DNA from: Verrucomicrobiota bacterium
GTDB lineage: Bacteria; Verrucomicrobiota; Verrucomicrobiae; Chthoniobacterales; UBA10450
Assembly: GCA_005887855.1 (NCBI GenBank)
Contig: VBQB01000239.1
Span: 1 to 7,213, forward strand
Length of the DNA stretch: 7,213 nucleotides
Reading direction: 5' to 3'
The notes under the pieces were generated by a model, which worked only from the letters and a program-made list of their open reading frames with translations, did not search any database and was not told the origin of the DNA. Below, piece after piece: positions 906 to 7,213 of the stretch. The number at the start of each line of letters is the position of its first letter. Position 1 is the first letter of the stretch. The translations under genes and the position numbers were made by a program.

Positions 906-1034
906 TCATCGCATCAGCGCCATAAGCCGGCTGCGGCTGGTGACTTCGAGCTTGCGGAAGATCGCGTGAACGTGCTTTTTCACCGTGGGCAAACTCAAGC
1001 CAGTGTCATCGGCAGTCTCCTGGTTACTCCGGCC
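906..1034 (-). pseudogene. In-frame remainder of the LuxR HTH after the UAG
   Basis: Reading on from the UAG at 1035-1037 in the same frame gives 42 sense codons and then TGA at 906-908. The translation begins GRSNQETADDTG, continues LSLPTVKKHVHAIFRKLEV and ends TSRSRLMALMR. This is the rest of a LuxR/GerE helix-turn-helix: the scaffold helix (SNQETADDTG), the recognition helix (LPTVKKHVHAIFRKL) and the last helix (SRSRLMAL). The turn residues and the TVKxHV signature are intact, so the segment was under selection until recently or still is. Without readthrough it has no start and would not be translated. Confidence 0.85.
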
Positions 1035-2045
1035 CTAGCAGACAAGTCGGACAACTTCCTGTTCGCGGCGCGTAAGCCGGACGAAATGGGGCAAACTGGA
1101 GCTCGCCGGCCCGGAACGCGGAGCAGCCTGACGGCGCAAGTCTTCGCACTCGATAAGAAAATGCGGCCGCGCCACGCCGGCTGAGGTGAGCGGTTTCAGA
1201 TGGAGCGTCGCTCGCAAATGCGGCGAGCACGGATGATGCACCTGTTCTTCTTGGGCGCTTGTTTGCGGCGCATTGAGGCGTTGCGCGTGGGCCCATTGTT
1301 GTTTGAGCAGGCGGCATCGGTCGAGGATCTCGGACGGAATCGGGGAACTCGCTTTCATTAGTCGCGCCGCCTCCGGTCCTTTTTCCCACAGCGCGCAGAA
1401 ATCACGCGCGGCCCGGTTTTGATAAATCGACTTAAGATTCCATCGCAGAAGGATCGTCGGCATTGGCAGCCGGTTCAGGAATTCTTCGAAGGCCATCCGC
1501 GCTGAGTGTTCGCGCTCGAGCGAGCCAAGCCGCTGAAGCGCGGCCAGAACCTGCGGGTAAAGCTGCCGGAGCAATTTCATCTCCGCCGACGACAGATCGC
1601 CCTGCGTTGCCGTGCGCATGATTGCAATCACACAAATGAGCCTCTGGCCCTTCCAAAAAAAGAGACCCACGCCGTGCTGGCAGCGTTGAGGCGCCATGTA
1701 TCGGCGATAGAAGGCCGATTTTATCAAACTGTTTCGATTCGAAAAGACGTCGTTAATCCGCACAAACCTGTTATGCGGCCGCCCGGCGATATAATCCTTG
1801 AGCGGCGCGGCGTTGAAAAAACCGTCAGGCATGGGCAATGTCCACCTCGTGATCATTGGCAAAATTGGATTGTGCTGAAGCGTCATCCCCATCAAGCGAT
1901 TTGGGATCGCGGCGGAGAGCAACCGCTGGACGGCTTTCCAAAACGAATCGATGTTCATTGCTCGGTGCAGGCCAAGCAAAGGCCTTTCCAGTACCGGATC
2001 GATCACCGGCTCGCGCTTCGTGCCAACCCCTGCGATTCGCGTCAT
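1035..2045 (-). CDS. LuxR-family transcriptional regulator, cut short by an in-frame amber stop in the HTH
   Basis: As read, this is a 336-residue protein. The N-terminal part (about 20-170) resembles a GAF-type sensor region (WKGQRLICVIAIMR; LSSAEMKLLRQLYPQVLAAL). Residues about 185-300 resemble a PAS-like domain (FEEFLNRLPMPTILLRWNLKSIYQNRAA). Residues 323-336 (RLTRREQEVVRLVC) are the first helix of a LuxR/GerE DNA-binding domain. The frame then hits UAG, exactly where family members have Gln or a similar residue followed by G.SN.EIA. The rest of the HTH follows in frame to 906; the intact protein would be 379 residues. I chose ATG 2045 because GAGGAG (2052-2057 on +) lies six bases before it; a TTG at 2066 lies upstream of that site. 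Without its recognition helix the short product should not bind DNA. It could be a recent pseudogene, a readthrough gene or a sequencing error (one base, A at 1037). It is divergent from the small-gene/Hsp20 cluster. Confidence 0.85.
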   Translation of the reverse strand: MTRIAGVGTKREPVIDPVLERPLLGLHRAMNIDSFWKAVQRLLSAAIPNRLMGMTLQHNPILPMITRWTLPMPDGFFNAAPLKDYIAGRPHNRFVRINDVFSNRNSLIKSAFYRRYMAPQRCQHGVGLFFWKGQRLICVIAIMRTATQGDLSSAEMKLLRQLYPQVLAALQRLGSLEREHSARMAFEEFLNRLPMPTILLRWNLKSIYQNRAARDFCALWEKGPEAARLMKASSPIPSEILDRCRLLKQQWAHAQRLNAPQTSAQEEQVHHPCSPHLRATLHLKPLTSAGVARPHFLIECEDLRRQAAPRSGPASSSLPHFVRLTRREQEVVRLVC

Positions 2046-2131: not shown

Positions 2132-2153
2132 AAAAAGGCAACCTAAGTTACCT
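2132..2153 (+). promoter_or_regulatory. Conserved 22-nt upstream element, copy 1
   Basis: Five A's are followed by GGCAACCTAAGTTACCT. The same 22 bases recur without change at 2628-2649 and 3122-3143. The core GGCAACCTAAGTTACC is an imperfect inverted repeat (GGCAAC, four bases, GTTACC; 12 of 16 positions symmetric), which suits a dimeric regulator. Alternatively GCAACC with its AAC motif could be the -35 of an ECF-type sigma promoter. The core ends 64 bases before the ATG at 2217 and lies 91 bases from the divergent LuxR-type start, so it could serve both genes. Confidence 0.75.
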
Positions 2154-2216
2154 GGCGATCATCAAGCGGTGCGCGAAAGTTGAGGTTAACCTTAAACAAG
2201 AAAGGAAACACAGCAA

Positions 2217-2486
2217 ATGAAACTCCAAATCAATGTGCCGGTAAGCGGCCTGGACTTGGCAAGCTTGCTCCAGGGTGAAGAAGGGTTTTTCCTCTGCCAA
2301 AACAGGGGGCAGAACTTCATTACTGTGGCAAAGGCTGGTCACTCGATCGCATTTGGGCCGACGCCAATCGGCCGAGGCGTCCAAGAACAGCAGTCCGCTA
2401 CGCTTGGGCCGGAACCTTGGGTCGTCACGAAGATAAGCAACTCGACCGAGTTCGCCGAATTCCACGGGACGATGTCCGGCAGATAG
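2217..2486 (+). CDS. Small conserved protein of unknown function, copy 1 (89 aa)
   Basis: I do not recognise the family. The protein starts MKLQINVPVSGLDLASLLQG and has no signal peptide or membrane helix, so it is probably cytoplasmic. It has alternating hydrophobic stretches (LQINVPV, GFFLCQ, NFITVAK, SIAFGP, WVVTKI), a Gly/Pro-rich middle (FGPTPIGRG) and a single Cys at residue 27, suggesting a small beta-rich fold. AAAGGA lies ten bases before the ATG. Its neighbour at 2716-2991 is 85 of 89 residues identical; changes are V55I, Q59P, T85A, M86I and a two-residue extension. About ten of fourteen codon differences are silent, including third-position changes spread along the gene, which argues that the protein is real and selected. 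It has its own upstream element and terminator, so it is a monocistronic unit. Sharing its element with Hsp20 suggests a stress role by inference. Confidence 0.8.
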   Translation: MKLQINVPVSGLDLASLLQGEEGFFLCQNRGQNFITVAKAGHSIAFGPTPIGRGVQEQQSATLGPEPWVVTKISNSTEFAEFHGTMSGR

Positions 2487-2521
2487 ATGCGCTAAGCCAA
2501 GATAACAAAAGCGCGAAGAAA

Positions 2522-2566
2522 AAATCAAAAGCCTCGGTGGGGAAACTCGCCGGGGCTTTTTGATTT
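2522..2566 (+). terminator. Rho-independent terminator of small gene copy 1
   Basis: The arms AAAGCCTCGGTGGG and CTCGCCGGGGCTTT pair around a GAAA tetraloop (2542-2545), with a few G-U pairs. The stem extends outward through AAATCAAAA and TTTTGATTT with one extra T, and a T run follows the GC-rich part. The flanking A and T runs would let it work in both directions. Confidence 0.9.
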
Positions 2567-2627
2567 AGTCAGCTGCGTGCAGGCTGAGCAAACGCGTTTC
2601 CTGAAGCGTTCAACAATCGGGCGATTT

Positions 2628-2649
2628 AAAAAGGCAACCTAAGTTACCT
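2628..2649 (+). promoter_or_regulatory. Conserved 22-nt upstream element, copy 2
   Basis: The sequence is identical to copies 1 and 3; the symmetric core is 2633-2648, 496 bases after copy 1. Bases further downstream (GGCGGTCGTCAA) differ slightly from copy 1 (GGCGATCATCAA). The core ends 67 bases before the ATG at 2716. Confidence 0.75.
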
Positions 2650-2715
2650 GGCGGTCGTCAATCGGCGCGCGAAACTTCACATCAACGCTAAAAAAGAAAG
2701 GAGAAAAGGCAAACG

Positions 2716-2991
2716 ATGAAGCTCCAAATCAATGTGCCGGTTAGCGGCCTGGACTTGGCAAGCTTGCTCCAGGGTGAAGAAGGGTTTTTCCTCTGCCAAA
2801 ACAGAGGGCAGAACTTCATTACTGTGGCAAAGGCTGGTCACTCGATCGCCTTTGGGCCGACGCCAATCGGCCGCGGCATCCAAGAACAGCCGTCAGCTAC
2901 TCTTGGACCGGAGCCTTGGGTCGTCACGAAGATAAGCAACTCGACCGAGTTCGCCGAATTCCACGGGGCGATCTCCGGTAGAGAGCGCTAA
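2716..2991 (+). CDS. Small conserved protein of unknown function, copy 2 (91 aa)
   Basis: This is a near-identical paralogue of the protein at 2217-2486. It differs at four residues (I55, P59, A85, I86) and ends SGRER instead of SGR. The ending differs because copy 1 has TAG plus ATG where this copy has GAG, and both then run into CGCTAA. AAGGAG lies twelve bases before the start, somewhat far but usable. As for copy 1, there is no signal peptide, membrane segment or known motif, and I name no function. The unit is monocistronic, with the 22-nt element upstream and a GAAA-loop terminator at 3022-3062. Two retained copies suggest either a dosage benefit or a recent duplication. Confidence 0.8.
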   Translation: MKLQINVPVSGLDLASLLQGEEGFFLCQNRGQNFITVAKAGHSIAFGPTPIGRGIQEQPSATLGPEPWVVTKISNSTEFAEFHGAISGRER

Positions 2992-3021
2992 GGCAAGCAG
3001 CAAAACGCGAACGAAAAAATC

Positions 3022-3062
3022 AAAAGCCCCGGTGGGGAAACTCACCGGGGCGTTTTGTTTTT
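3022..3062 (+). terminator. Rho-independent terminator of small gene copy 2
   Basis: The arms GCCCCGGTGGG (3026-3036) and CTCACCGGGGC (3041-3051) form an 11-bp stem around GAAA, followed by GTTTTGTTTTT. Relative to copy 1, two G-U pairs have become C-G and U-A pairs, so base changes have kept or improved pairing. Confidence 0.9.
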
Positions 3063-3121
3063 CGCCAGCTGCGCGCAAGCTGAGGAAAGACTTTTTCTGA
3101 GCGTACCACAATCGAGCGATA

Positions 3122-3143
3122 AAAAAGGCAACCTAAGTTACCT
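3122..3143 (+). promoter_or_regulatory. Conserved 22-nt upstream element, copy 3, before Hsp20
   Basis: The 22 bases are identical to the two elements before the small genes, with the symmetric core at 3127-3142, 494 bases after copy 2. Flanking similarity covers ACAATCG.GCGAT upstream and CGCGGTGC.CGA downstream, then stops near 3167. The core ends 117 bases before the Hsp20 ATG, a longer leader than for the small genes. Confidence 0.75.
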
Positions 3144-3151
3144 CGCAATCA

Positions 3152-3253
3152 CCTCGCGGTGCCCGAGGCTTATATACGCCGGTTTTTATGTTCGGAACAA
3201 CTGGCGGCCGAACACGGCGATAGATACAATCCTGCCGGTAAAGAAAGGATATC
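3152..3253 (+). promoter_or_regulatory. Hsp20 leader with hairpins; candidate RNA thermometer
   Basis: Three hairpins can be drawn in the leader. CCTCG (3152-3156) pairs with CGAGG (3164-3168). TGTTCGG (3189-3195) pairs perfectly with CCGAACA (3208-3214). The last has GATA (3223-3226) with TATC (3250-3253) and TCCT (3230-3233) with AGGA (3246-3249), separated by a CAA bulge. AGGA is the core of the Shine-Dalgarno sequence. A weak, bulged hairpin over the ribosome site at the end of a multi-hairpin leader is the design of ROSE-type RNA thermometers, which are common before small heat shock genes. This is a hand fold; no energy was computed. Confidence 0.45.
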
Positions 3254-3259
3254 ATTAAG

Positions 3260-3715
3260 ATGATGAACACACTCACTCGCTGGGAACCATTCAGAGAAAT
3301 GGAGGACCTGCAGAGCCGGCTCTCGACCCTTTTTGGCCGGACGCCAATGCGCCGGGGGAATGGGAAAGAGAGTATCACGTTGCCCGAATGGACACCCCTC
3401 GCGGACATTACCGAGGACGACAGGGAATACGTCATTAAGGCTGAATTGCCTGAGTTAAAAAAAGAAGACGTAAAAGTCACTGTCGAGAGCGGGGTTCTTA
3501 CCATCTCGGGCGAGCGCAAGTTCGAAAAAGAGGAGAAAAACAAGAAGTATCACCGCGTAGAGCGCGGCTACGGCAGTTTCGTGCGGACTTTCGCGCTGCC
3601 GGACGACGCGGACGCAGACAAAGTAAAGGCCGCGTTCAAGCACGGCATCCTTGAGGTGCATTTGCCGAAGAACGAAAAAGCCAAACCCAAACAGATCGAA
3701 GTCAACGTCGTCTGA
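3260..3715 (+). CDS. Hsp20 family small heat shock protein (151 aa)
   Basis: This is an ATP-independent holdase chaperone that binds unfolding proteins in the cytoplasm as oligomers and passes them to DnaK-type chaperones. The N-terminal arm (1-43) has the usual amphipathic TRWEPFREMEDLQSRLSTLFG. The alpha-crystallin domain spans about 44-138, with ADITEDDREYVIKAELPELKKEDVKV, GVLTISGER (79-86), the HRVERGYGSFVRTFALP strand pair (98-114) and the signature AAFKHGILEVHLPK (124-137). The tail has an I-X-V motif (IEV, 146-148) that docks on neighbouring subunits. Length and layout are typical. ATG 3260 is followed at once by a second ATG; AAGGA is ten bases from the first. Control by the shared 22-nt element and possibly by a leader thermometer fits a heat-stress gene. 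Confidence 0.97.
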   Translation: MMNTLTRWEPFREMEDLQSRLSTLFGRTPMRRGNGKESITLPEWTPLADITEDDREYVIKAELPELKKEDVKVTVESGVLTISGERKFEKEEKNKKYHRVERGYGSFVRTFALPDDADADKVKAAFKHGILEVHLPKNEKAKPKQIEVNVV

Positions 3716-3999: not shown

Positions 4000-5043
4000 T
4001 TAATCTTCGGTAATGATGCCGAATAGCCCGTGTTCTTCGTCGGCGATTCCAGCGGTAAAATAGACTCCATCGCCGAGAGGAAGAAGATCCCACAGGCCCT
4101 CGAACTCGAGTGGCGTCCCATCGGCGGTCATAAGCGTCTCGATAAAGGCGCCCGTGACCGGATCGTAATTGTTGATGCGACCATCACCGAAATTGCCGAC
4201 CCAAAGCTCGTCCCCCTCAACCAGAGCGAGTCCCCATGGGGCGTTGAGCTCGCCGTTTGAGATCAGGCGCCTGAGGAAATTGCCGCTGGTATCGAACACA
4301 TTGACGAAGCCAAAGCCGGGACCCGCAACGTCATCCTCTCTATGCTGATCCTGTTTGGCGTAGGTCACAAAAATCTCGCCATTGATATTTCGGATGCCAA
4401 ACGGGCCGTAACCTGCCGGAAGGTTTGGGTCGACAAAGCCGTTGGGATTAACCTGATGAAAATTCTCGTCGAAGGTGTGGACCTTGCCCGTATGAAAATC
4501 TGTCGCATACAGGAAATTGTGACCGTTGGCCACGCCCAGTGTTGCACCTTTATAAATTGCGCGATTAACGCCACGGTTCGTGCCGTTATCAACGGCGATG
4601 ATGGCGTTTGTCTGATCCAGCGTCGGGTTCCAACCTGAGATGGAACCGTCTTCACTGACAAAAATGAAAAAGGCGGGCGCCGAGTTTCCATTCTTTGTCA
4701 CCTGGAAGAACGGTGTGCCGTTGAAGACTTGCCCAGTGGGATTTCCAACTCCTCGGTTCCGCGCAGCGGTGGGGATCGTTACGACGAGCGAAACAGCTGT
4801 GCCATCCTGATGGTAGAGGGTCGAAACACCGGTGCCGTTGTCGCTGACCCAAATCGTCCCAGATGGCGAGACCGACATGCCCCATGGATTGACAAGGTTT
4901 TCATCGACGTGCTGCGCTACACCGGGGATGTCAGATTGGAAGTTTGTCCATGAATAGGTATCCGCGCGCGCAAACGCGGCGGTAAACGACATAGCTATTA
5001 AGACAAGCAGAGTTGTTTTGATTGAAGTGTGAATTGTTTTCAT
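4000..5043 (-). CDS. TIGR03118 family exported beta-propeller-like protein (347 aa)
   Basis: This exported protein has a repeated NHL/SMP-30-like strand pattern. A signal peptide covers residues 1-27 (MKTIHTSIKTTLLVLIAMSF, cut after FARA). The mature part carries repeated blocks: LVNPWGMSVSPSGTIWVSDNGTG (about 50-72), PAFFIFVSEDGSISGWNP (123-140), NFLYATDFHTGKVHTFD (176-192), YGPFGIRNINGEIFVTYAK (212-230), LNAPWGLALVEGDELWVGNFGDG (266-288) and a closing GVYFTAGIADEEHGLFGII. This order and the NPWG/SDNGTG opening are those of TIGR03118 proteins, whose function is unknown. Many members end in a PEP-CTERM sorting signal; this one stops at FGIITED without one, so it is probably free in the periplasm or secreted. 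AAAGGAAG six bases before the ATG supports the start. It stands alone, divergent from the hemoglobin gene. Confidence 0.88.
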   Translation of the reverse strand: MKTIHTSIKTTLLVLIAMSFTAAFARADTYSWTNFQSDIPGVAQHVDENLVNPWGMSVSPSGTIWVSDNGTGVSTLYHQDGTAVSLVVTIPTAARNRGVGNPTGQVFNGTPFFQVTKNGNSAPAFFIFVSEDGSISGWNPTLDQTNAIIAVDNGTNRGVNRAIYKGATLGVANGHNFLYATDFHTGKVHTFDENFHQVNPNGFVDPNLPAGYGPFGIRNINGEIFVTYAKQDQHREDDVAGPGFGFVNVFDTSGNFLRRLISNGELNAPWGLALVEGDELWVGNFGDGRINNYDPVTGAFIETLMTADGTPLEFEGLWDLLPLGDGVYFTAGIADEEHGLFGIITED

Positions 5044-5246
5044 TTTTTGCTTCCTTTCATTTGTTAACGCGGGCCGATGTTGGCTCGACTGTGTGAAGTT
5101 TCTTTCTCCGTATTTTTGTCGAGTTGATTTTGGGATTGATGTCGAAGTAAATGAATAACGACGCTGTAGGTCTACTCATCGGCTTCATACCCGTAGAATC
5201 GCAGCGATCTGGGCCGCGCGCCGCACCAACCTAGACGCAAATTGTG

Positions 5247-5252
5247 TATGAT
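5247..5252 (+). promoter_or_regulatory. Candidate -10 box for a leaderless hemoglobin mRNA
   Basis: TATGAT ends eight bases before the ATG at 5261, so a transcript using it would begin at or near the start codon. This fits the absence of any Shine-Dalgarno sequence. No good -35 is seen at the expected distance (CACCAA near 5224). Confidence 0.35.
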
Positions 5253-5260
5253 TTAGTTCT

Positions 5261-5665
5261 ATGCCACAGCCTCCCACACTCTATGAGCGACTGGGCGGCG
5301 TTTACCCCATCGCCACGGTCGTCGATGACCTTATTGACCGCGTCATGGTCGACTCGAGGTTGAACGCGAATCCCCGGGTGGATGAAGCGCATCATCGGGT
5401 TGCGCCGGCGGGATTCAAATACCTGGTCACGGAAATGGTCTGCTGGGCTGCTGGCGGACCGCAAAAATACACCGGACGCTCGATGTACGAGTCGCACAAA
5501 GAAATGAAGATCACCGCAGGCGAATGGGAGGCCTTCATGGATGATCTTCGGCAGACGCTGGACAAGTTCGGAGTACCTGCGCCGGAGCAGGCTGAGCTAA
5601 AGGCGATTGTCGAGAGCACGCGCGCCGACATCGTCGTAGAACCTGAAGCGACCACAACTTCGTAG
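5261..5665 (+). CDS. Group 1 truncated hemoglobin-like protein (134 aa)
   Basis: This small cytoplasmic heme protein is of the 2-on-2 globin type, a family that binds O2, NO or related ligands. It opens with TLYERLGGVYPIATVVDDLI (6-25), the group 1 A/B helix signature. The E-helix region (about 44-63) leads to GGPQKYTGRSMYESHKEM (65-82), in which His79 is the proximal heme ligand. The G/H helices follow (ITAGEWEAFMDDLRQTLDKFGVP). The usual Phe-Tyr at B9-B10 is Leu24-Ile25, and the usual Phe-Phe near CD1 aligns with Asn37-Pro38, so the distal pocket is not canonical. I recall related globins with a LNANP motif as a distinct subgroup. A C-terminal extension (about 106-134) goes beyond the minimal globin. 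TGA at 5249-5251 in frame rules out an earlier start; there is no Shine-Dalgarno sequence. It is a single gene. Confidence 0.9.
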   Translation: MPQPPTLYERLGGVYPIATVVDDLIDRVMVDSRLNANPRVDEAHHRVAPAGFKYLVTEMVCWAAGGPQKYTGRSMYESHKEMKITAGEWEAFMDDLRQTLDKFGVPAPEQAELKAIVESTRADIVVEPEATTTS

Positions 5666-5685
5666 CGCCTCAAACTTTGAGGCGC
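5665..5685 (+). terminator. Hairpin at the end of the hemoglobin gene
   Basis: GCGCCTCAA (5665-5673) and TTGAGGCGC (5677-5685) pair perfectly across a three-base turn, and the stem begins on the last base of the TAG stop. No T tract follows. A later CGCTTCTCAAGCTTTTTT (about 5774-5791) has a short four-pair stem and a T run and may complete termination. Confidence 0.45.
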
Positions 5686-5830
5686 GCGTCATGGCAGATG
5701 CTTGGTAAAAATTAAAAATCTGCGGCTGACATAGCCACCGCTACAACGGCCGGTCCAGGGGGCGGGTCCCTACGCTTCTCAAGCTTTTTTGCCTACGGTA
5801 TCCTGCACCTGCGACCAAGTCCTGGCTCGG

Positions 5831-7213
5831 TCACTCGCTTTTCCAACCATTGCCATTGCCGTCTGGAGTGAGAGCGGCCGCGTATTCCGGCGCAAGATCG
5901 ACATCTTCGGTAGCGCCCTCCAATTCCGGGTCCATCAGAGATTTCTCGTGATGTTCCTTCGCGATGAGCATGTAAAGCGATGGCACGATGAACAAAGTGA
6001 AAATGGTTCCGATAGTCATCCCGCCGACGAGCACGAGACCGATTGAGTTTCGCGCTGCAGCTCCAGCGCCGCTCACCAGCGTAAGAGGAAAGTGACCGGC
6101 GACCGTCGCGACGCTCGTCATCATGATGGGACGCAATCGAATTCGGGCCGCTTTGGCAACCGCGGCGAGTTTGTCGAGGCCTTCGCGCTGCAGCTCATTC
6201 GCAAACTGCACGATCAGAATTCCATTTTTCGAAACGAGACCGACGAGCGTGACGAGACCGACCTGCGAGTAGATGTTGAAGGAAGTCGTCCAACTATCGG
6301 TGAAGAATTGTCCGAACGGCATTTTCAAAAACATGAAGAGACCCGCGCCGAACATGGCGAGCGGAACCGATCCCAACAGAATAATGAATGGGTCGCGGAA
6401 GCTGTTAAACTGCGCCGCTAGGACGAGAAAGATCAGCACGAGCGAAAGCACAAACACTCCGAGAAATTTGCTGCCTTCTGTGCGCAACTGGCGCGACTCG
6501 CCCGTGTAATCGAGCACGTAACCTTTCGGAAGAATGTTACGCGCCTCGTTCTCCAAAAATTTCAGAGCAGCATCGAGGGAAACTGCCGGTACCCCGCTGA
6601 TGGTGACCGCGTTGAGTTGTTGCATGCGATTGAGCGAACGCGCGACGGTTTTGTGTTTAATCGAAGCGACTGTGCTCAATGGAATGAGCTGATTGTTCGG
6701 CCCGCTCACGTAAATATTTTCCAACTGCTCCGGATTCAATCGATCGACGCGCTTGATCTGTGGAATCACTTTGTAACTGCGTCCTTCGATGTTGAACCGG
6801 TTGACGTAATTGCCGCCGATGCTGGCCGAGAGATCGGCGCCCACTTGCTGCATGTCGAGGCCGAGCGCCGCGACTTTGTCGTGATCGAAAACGATCGCCG
6901 ATTGGGGCTGGTCGATCTTCGTATCGATGTCGCCGAATTGGAAAATGTGCGCCTGCATCGCTTTCCCGAAAATTTGCTTCGCGAATTCGAGAATGCGTTC
7001 CTGATCGGCGGTGGATGTGATCACGAAACTGACCGGAAAATTATCCGCGCCGGGAAGGGCCGAGGGCATGATCGGAAACATTTGTATACCTGGAATGGCA
7101 CCAAGTTTGGCCTCCACCTGCGGCAGGTAGGCCTTCGTCGGCGTTTTGCGGACGCCCCACGGCTTCAAAACCATTCCTCCGAATCCGTTGTCCGGAAACG
7201 TAAGTTGAAACGT
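5831..7213 (-). CDS. RND (AcrB/HAE1-type) efflux transporter, C-terminal part
   Basis: This is the inner-membrane, proton-driven pump subunit of a tripartite efflux system. The frame is open to the window edge and enters as TFQLTFPDNGFGGMVLKPW, so ATG 7174 is internal and the start lies beyond 7213. About 460 residues are visible, roughly the last 40-45 percent of a full pump of about 1050. Numbering from the Met at 7174, a porter/docking region (1-235; SASIGGNYVNRFNIEGRSYKV) is followed by TM8 (about 237-257, then AAQFNSF), TM9 (262-283), TM10 (301-323, VGLVSKNGILIVQFAN), TM11 (348-367, RLRPIMMTSVATVAGHFPL) and TM12 (377-404). The TM9-TM10 link carries extra residues (KMPFGQFFTDSWTTS). The tail is acidic and then Gly/Asn-rich. 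The proton-relay aspartates of TM4 are outside the window. The substrate cannot be told. The membrane-fusion partner is presumably upstream, off the edge. Confidence 0.95.
   Translation of the reverse strand, partial: TFQLTFPDNGFGGMVLKPWGVRKTPTKAYLPQVEAKLGAIPGIQMFPIMPSALPGADNFPVSFVITSTADQERILEFAKQIFGKAMQAHIFQFGDIDTKIDQPQSAIVFDHDKVAALGLDMQQVGADLSASIGGNYVNRFNIEGRSYKVIPQIKRVDRLNPEQLENIYVSGPNNQLIPLSTVASIKHKTVARSLNRMQQLNAVTISGVPAVSLDAALKFLENEARNILPKGYVLDYTGESRQLRTEGSKFLGVFVLSLVLIFLVLAAQFNSFRDPFIILLGSVPLAMFGAGLFMFLKMPFGQFFTDSWTTSFNIYSQVGLVTLVGLVSKNGILIVQFANELQREGLDKLAAVAKAARIRLRPIMMTSVATVAGHFPLTLVSGAGAAARNSIGLVLVGGMTIGTIFTLFIVPSLYMLIAKEHHEKSLMDPELEGATEDVDLAPEYAAALTPDGNGNGWKSE

Follow-up and report, generated by a model that had tools for sequence, protein, structure and literature searches.

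Why should a short stretch of DNA recur letter for letter before three genes, two of them encoding small proteins and the third a heat-shock chaperone? The question arises from a 7,213-nucleotide stretch of a Verrucomicrobiota contig (VBQB01000239.1, assembly GCA_005887855.1), hereafter the window, in which an exact 22-mer, AAAAAGGCAACCTAAGTTACCT, is present in three copies (Table 1). A first-pass annotation had described these copies as unchanged and on one strand, within surroundings that have diverged, most of all at copy 3. Both observations hold: over some 60 nt downstream of the element, aligned identity is 44/60 between copies 1 and 2, but only 33/61 and 31/61 when copy 3 is compared with copies 1 and 2, respectively, although its 22 nt are identical. 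The upstream flanks align at 43/65 (copies 1-2), 36/64 (1-3) and 46/62 (2-3), with weaker paralogous similarity reaching approximately 22-25 nt upstream of the element. A 17-nt part of the 22-mer has three matches in the window at up to 3 mismatches vs 0.01 expected, and 0 of 200 shuffled controls gave three. A random repeat was considered and rejected.

The spacing between copies (496 and 494 bp) is explained by tandem duplication of a unit that comprises promoter, small gene and terminator. Identity is 91% over a 293-nt repeat surrounding the small gene and 92% between the hairpins 3' of the small genes. The three copies in the window are therefore not independent. Further downstream, positions 4000-7213 encode a TIGR03118 protein, a bacterial globin and an AcrB-type efflux pump; in 9 of the 19 loci compared, the efflux pump gene lies on the contig after the small gene.

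Table 1. Features of the window, numbered from its first nucleotide.
Feature	Position	Strand	Remarks
LuxR/GerE-family regulator frame	906..2045	-	Divergent from small gene 1; start codon by comparison with relatives
Putative operator, copy 1, A5-GGCAACCTAAGTTACCT	2132..2153	+	Between regulator and small gene 1; exact repeat, regulator linkage in relatives
Predicted -10, GAAAGT (xAnnnT)	2175..2180	+	22 nt after copy 1; predicted start near 2187
Small protein A, copy 1	2217..2486	+	89 aa; without Pfam or NCBIfam family
Terminator-like hairpin after small gene 1	2518..2566	+	Repeat; terminator reading by eye
Putative operator, copy 2	2628..2649	+	Exact repeat
Predicted -10, GAAACT	2671..2676	+	After copy 2; predicted start near 2683
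Small protein A, copy 2	2716..2991	+	91 aa
Terminator-like hairpin after small gene 2	3013..3061	+	Repeat; terminator reading by eye
Putative operator, copy 3	3122..3143	+	Before Hsp20; exact repeat
Predicted -10, GAGGCT	3165..3170	+	After copy 3; alternative TATATA at 3171-3176; predicted start near 3177
Hsp20 small heat-shock protein	3260..3715	+	PF00011, 5.5e-29

Comparison with relatives resolves the element into an A-tract followed by a partly dyad-symmetric 16-bp site, the conserved core being A(4-5)-N3-AACYTAAGWTACC; at some regulator-linked sites the dyad matches at only 4-5 of 8 pairs. The distribution of this core was assessed in 83 genomes of one family, that of the genome with a Candidatus Udaeobacter locus (L016 in G007), and in 130 other genomes of the order. 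Allowing at most one mismatch, the pattern AAAANNNAACYTAAGWTACC gave 38 matches vs 1 for the reversed control within the family, spread over 27 of the 83 genomes, and 1 match vs 11 for the reversed control outside it. Since the pattern was refined on the very genomes scanned, the contrast between inside and outside is the safer part of this result. The matches recur before the same groups of target genes, in agreement with the earlier proposal that the element is conserved as a functional, operator-like site. That annotation had also suggested searching relatives for the 16-bp core and listing the genes downstream. Near-exact sites did prove specific to the family; the 16-mer at two mismatches was rarer than its reversed control (26 vs 41 in 12 genomes), and for this reason only near-exact sites are counted here. 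As judged from these scans, the element is family-specific.

An exact 18-mer scan of one genome per species (84,980 species) returned 26 loci. Eleven lie in Verrucomicrobia bins, one of them named Candidatus Udaeobacter, and one in a Nitrospirae-labelled bin, where a small B gene is present. The remaining 14, from Psychrobacter (including L001, L002 and L005), were set aside as mutually alike terminator-like hairpins with the 18-mer at their apex. Viral matches (L027-L029) were likewise set aside; on L027 and L028 the 18-mer lies inside a longer hairpin. The Psychrobacter hairpins, together with the ability of AGGCAAC-CTAA-GTTACCT to form one, would suit an element acting in RNA, as a hairpin in the 5' leader or as a terminator. 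We find this scarcely credible: dyad pairs are broken in several sites, the window has 0 Rfam matches at gathering thresholds, and in small-gene family B the position of the start codon, discussed below, places the site upstream of the predicted transcript.

A more informative lead comes from a gene that the first-pass annotation did not mention. The minus-strand reading frame leaving copy 1 terminates as a LuxR-type helix-turn-helix (HTH), and, by tblastn, relatives of its product adjoin the element in many of the loci fetched, including Hsp20 loci without a small-gene match (L089, L088, L157, L093, L064). In the window the frame is interrupted by an in-frame TAG (1035-1037) inside the HTH. 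Relatives are intact at this point, and the stop codon may reflect an assembly error or a real loss; the regulator of G004 (L009) also lacks the end of the HTH, ending differently within it. In the intact relative L004, the C-terminus matches GerE (PF00196; 5.2e-13, 48.9 bits vs a cut-off of 23.5). For L004 and L174, the Pfam matches up to E 1 include neither an autoinducer-binding nor a receiver domain. The N-terminal part has a predicted GAF-like fold, the fold comparison spanning residues 6-301 only.

The regulator is present in 26/83 family genomes at E 1e-25, in G048 only as a 31% homologue. At E 1e-30, considering the best nine or fewer candidates per genome, it occurs in 26/83 family genomes vs 1/130 others of the order. 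At E 1e-40, with the best five or fewer candidates per genome, homologues were found in at least 23 of 384 genomes drawn from the class, 19 of these lying outside the four family genomes matched and being much weaker (E 1e-44 to 1e-79). The nearest row to the window in the regulator tree is G002 (82% identical); together with sequence matches and synteny, the tree suggests that the window belongs with soil Verrucomicrobia akin to Candidatus Udaeobacter. Regulators linked to Hsp20 and HspR branch outside the small-gene clade, with modest support (86/75), from which we infer that a heat-shock gene was targeted first, small genes being inserted later between regulator and hsp20. The order regulator, operator, small gene(s), operator, hsp20 is common to the window and G010.

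How closely do regulator and element go together? Of 24 regulators whose N-terminus is present and whose flank spans at least 90 nt, 23 have the element approximately 72-132 nt before the regulator start, as measured to the position aligned with the query's first residue. The exception, L188, is a homologue of only 30% identity. Two of the 24 (L087, L157) came from Hsp20 or pattern searches, and without both the count is 21/22; L171 (flank of 76 nt) and seven fragments lacking the regulator's N-terminus are not counted. Letter-shuffled 450-nt stretches reached the linkage score in 2 of 2000 cases. Across the 83 genomes, 21 carry both, 6 the element only, 5 the regulator only and 51 neither (Fisher p 5e-10), counts in which element and regulator lie at one locus. 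The element without a regulator match was noted in G025, G063, G066, G069 and G080, genomes of unstated completeness. The annotation's notion of a local regulon needs amending: a shared site is borne out, whereas "local" is too narrow for a site found in 27/83 family genomes, usually beside the LuxR-type regulator.

Site and protein also vary together. All five linked regulators with the recognition helix SLETVK face TAC-AACTTAAG sites. Among the remaining linked members of the clade, 13 have a readable helix, and none of these has TAC at that place. In the tree, regulators with SLETVK fall into a single supported clade (98/100), so this pairing may represent a single change. A TAC-type site in G023 (L068) falls outside these counts, its regulator being fragmented on another contig. 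The exact core AACCTAAGTT was additionally found upstream of 3/25 distant regulator homologues from outside the family (L202, L210, L211; approximately 29-33% identical) and is absent in 22; L210 and L211 are near-identical, and the regulator start of L202 is uncertain. These sites are suggestive only; regulator and site may have been paired before the family arose. In L210 and L211 the core faces a gene which, by eye, resembles a TonB-dependent receptor.

Identified with the help of Pfam, the genes downstream of pattern matches in family genomes include small protein A, small protein B and Hsp20, as well as PRC-barrel proteins (G021, G038), an NmrA-like NAD-binding protein (G080, G082), a polyglycine-hydrolase-like repeat protein (G064), a small protein beginning MSISDEQ (G005, G066) and further genes. 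Searching from the regulator instead added cupin genes at L190 and L191 as predicted targets, along with an HspR-like gene at L178 (NF047375, 7.9e-11, 41.8 bits, below the NCBI cut-off of 105); the predicted targets divergent from the regulator comprise two related small-protein families, one Hsp20 group, cupin and the HspR-like gene. The reading frame after the HspR-like gene resembles a membrane protein by eye. At L043, L060, L053 and L061, near-exact sites lead into a common GATCGGTGCGCGATAG-like stretch, after which comes either the MSISDEQ small protein or DNA with no clear gene, possibly a non-coding RNA.

The claim that the element joins a small-protein family of no known function to Hsp20 is supported. 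At 68% identity or more to the window protein, 11 of the 12 fetched Hsp20 loci have it upstream; among more distant Hsp20 loci with enough flank the count is 0/17 (a second L094 hit with an unsure start and the short flanks of L096 and L109 being omitted). A recognisable site precedes 8/8 small A genes found: six are near-exact, and those of G023 and G082 differ from the 21-nt consensus at 4 and 6 positions. Small B genes with a readable start, whose products are 41-48% identical to small protein A, have the element in 6/11 cases and are without it in 5/11. Small protein A (~90 aa) has 361 homologues at E 1e-3 and returned no Pfam or NCBIfam family. Its structure model is weak (pLDDT 62.6) and gave no fold match at E 0.001, and so we claim no function for it.

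The position of the element relative to the promoter bears on how it might act. We aligned 39 sites on the element, after dropping sites with two mismatches, the match in L140, which lies outside the family, and that in L159 of G077, which has no related target; in the grouping, the first small-A promoter of L022 was labelled hsp20 and the contig-end site L004 was labelled other. A sigma70-like -10 (xAnnnT) lies 22 nt past the element in 28/39 sites, 23 nt past it in 9/39, and at either distance in 33/39. At other offsets the motif occurs in 0-8 of 39, except for 14/39 at offset 4, a peak deriving from a GATCAT-like word of small-gene-type promoters. The six sites without it at 22-23 nt (L063, L136, L057, L062, L093, L143) mostly have no regulator alongside. 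TTGACA-like words at -35 spacing were not above shuffles (at least 4/6 letters in 8/39 sites vs 15% in shuffles).

An alternative reading, in line with the AAC-type -35 look-alike noted in the first-pass annotation, is an ECF sigma-factor promoter with GGCAAC as -35 and CRTC, 16 nt on, as -10. GGCAACC-N16-CRTC does fit most small-gene-type promoters, and the A-tract keeps to one side at nearly every site, as in promoters. The promoters bearing CRTC at that spacing are, however, mutually paralogous, and most Hsp20 and other sites lack it, sharing xAnnnT instead. GGC itself is variable (TAC, GAT, AGG, TGG), and the conserved core exceeds a -35 in length. The linked regulator, moreover, is of the GerE type; its matches to sigma-70 region 4 models all fall short of the models' cut-offs, and no region 2 model is among its listed matches. 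We consider an ECF promoter very improbable.

Small-gene family B also bears on the spacing. The gap between hexamer and ATG is 6 nt in 6/7 promoters and 7 nt in 1/7, placing the ATG 35-36 nt after the element and just past the predicted -10; none of the seven has an SD-like word at usable distance, and in two GGAAAG abuts the ATG. Transcription from a sigma70 promoter would accordingly begin at the ATG or beside it, predicting a leaderless mRNA and a site centred at -42.5. Seven family A promoters have predicted leaders of 23-45 nt with an AAAGG-type ribosome site. For comparison, the lux box is described as a 20-bp inverted repeat centred at -42.5 (PMC3376562).

Repression would also be compatible with a site next to the -35 region, and in all 23 linked cases the distance to the regulator's own start is such that the LuxR-type protein might use the site mainly for its own gene. 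Against repression or autoregulation stand the nearly fixed spacing to the target -10, the lack of -35 enrichment and the recurrence of the site before genes without an adjacent regulator, and we regard both as unlikely. That the regulator activates rather than represses is what we infer from position alone.

Small-gene promoters are paralogous and L179 and L192 are two contigs of one genome, so our counts overstate independence, which draft genomes and linkage at one locus limit further. With this in mind, we think it probable, on comparative sequence evidence, that the element is an activator operator of a GAF-containing LuxR/GerE one-component regulator encoded divergently alongside, repeated by tandem duplication. 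A signal would reach the regulator's N-terminal GAF-fold domain, and a regulator dimer would bind the site at about -42.5, replacing the -35 box, and then recruit sigma70 RNA polymerase as a class II activator. Predicted targets are of a stress type: one Hsp20 group, the HspR-like gene, PRC-barrel proteins, cupin and small proteins A and B. Three promoters in the window would have come under one regulator by tandem duplication of operator and small gene. A wider reading, which we hold tentatively and at slightly less than even confidence, is that, in this soil lineage of Verrucomicrobia, a GAF-LuxR one-component activator runs a stress regulon by way of a class II operator-promoter cassette, movable and spread before unrelated genes, with some leaderless mRNAs and with recognition helix and site changing together.

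Relatives of Candidatus Udaeobacter are very abundant in soils. Among the open papers listed by our searches, as judged from titles and the opening lines of abstracts, there was no description of this regulator-element pair, nor of any transcription factor with its site and targets for these relatives. Given so short and exact a proposed operator and a named regulator, chaperone control becomes accessible to a binding assay in a group that has been little studied, and an unannotated small-protein family gains a handle.

The nearest parallels are LuxR-type activators at lux boxes (PMC3376562), with which the system proposed here has in common the GerE HTH, an inverted-repeat site of approximately 16-20 bp and a centre predicted near -42.5. 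The model of its N-terminal domain also resembles the ligand domains of LasR and VqsR, both among the fold matches. It differs in having no autoinducer-binding domain among the Pfam matches listed, another site sequence, stress-type targets and a longer protein with an apparently PAS-like middle region. The closest solved HTH sequences are those of response regulators of the NarL/FixJ type such as VraR (7.9e-12), whereas the protein described here has no receiver domain among the Pfam matches listed. Known heat-shock control includes CIRCE/HrcA, HAIR/HspR, sigma32 and ROSE. The control of Hsp20 is shared with these systems, while site and regulator family are different; in G038, the HspR-like gene would itself be a target of the regulator.
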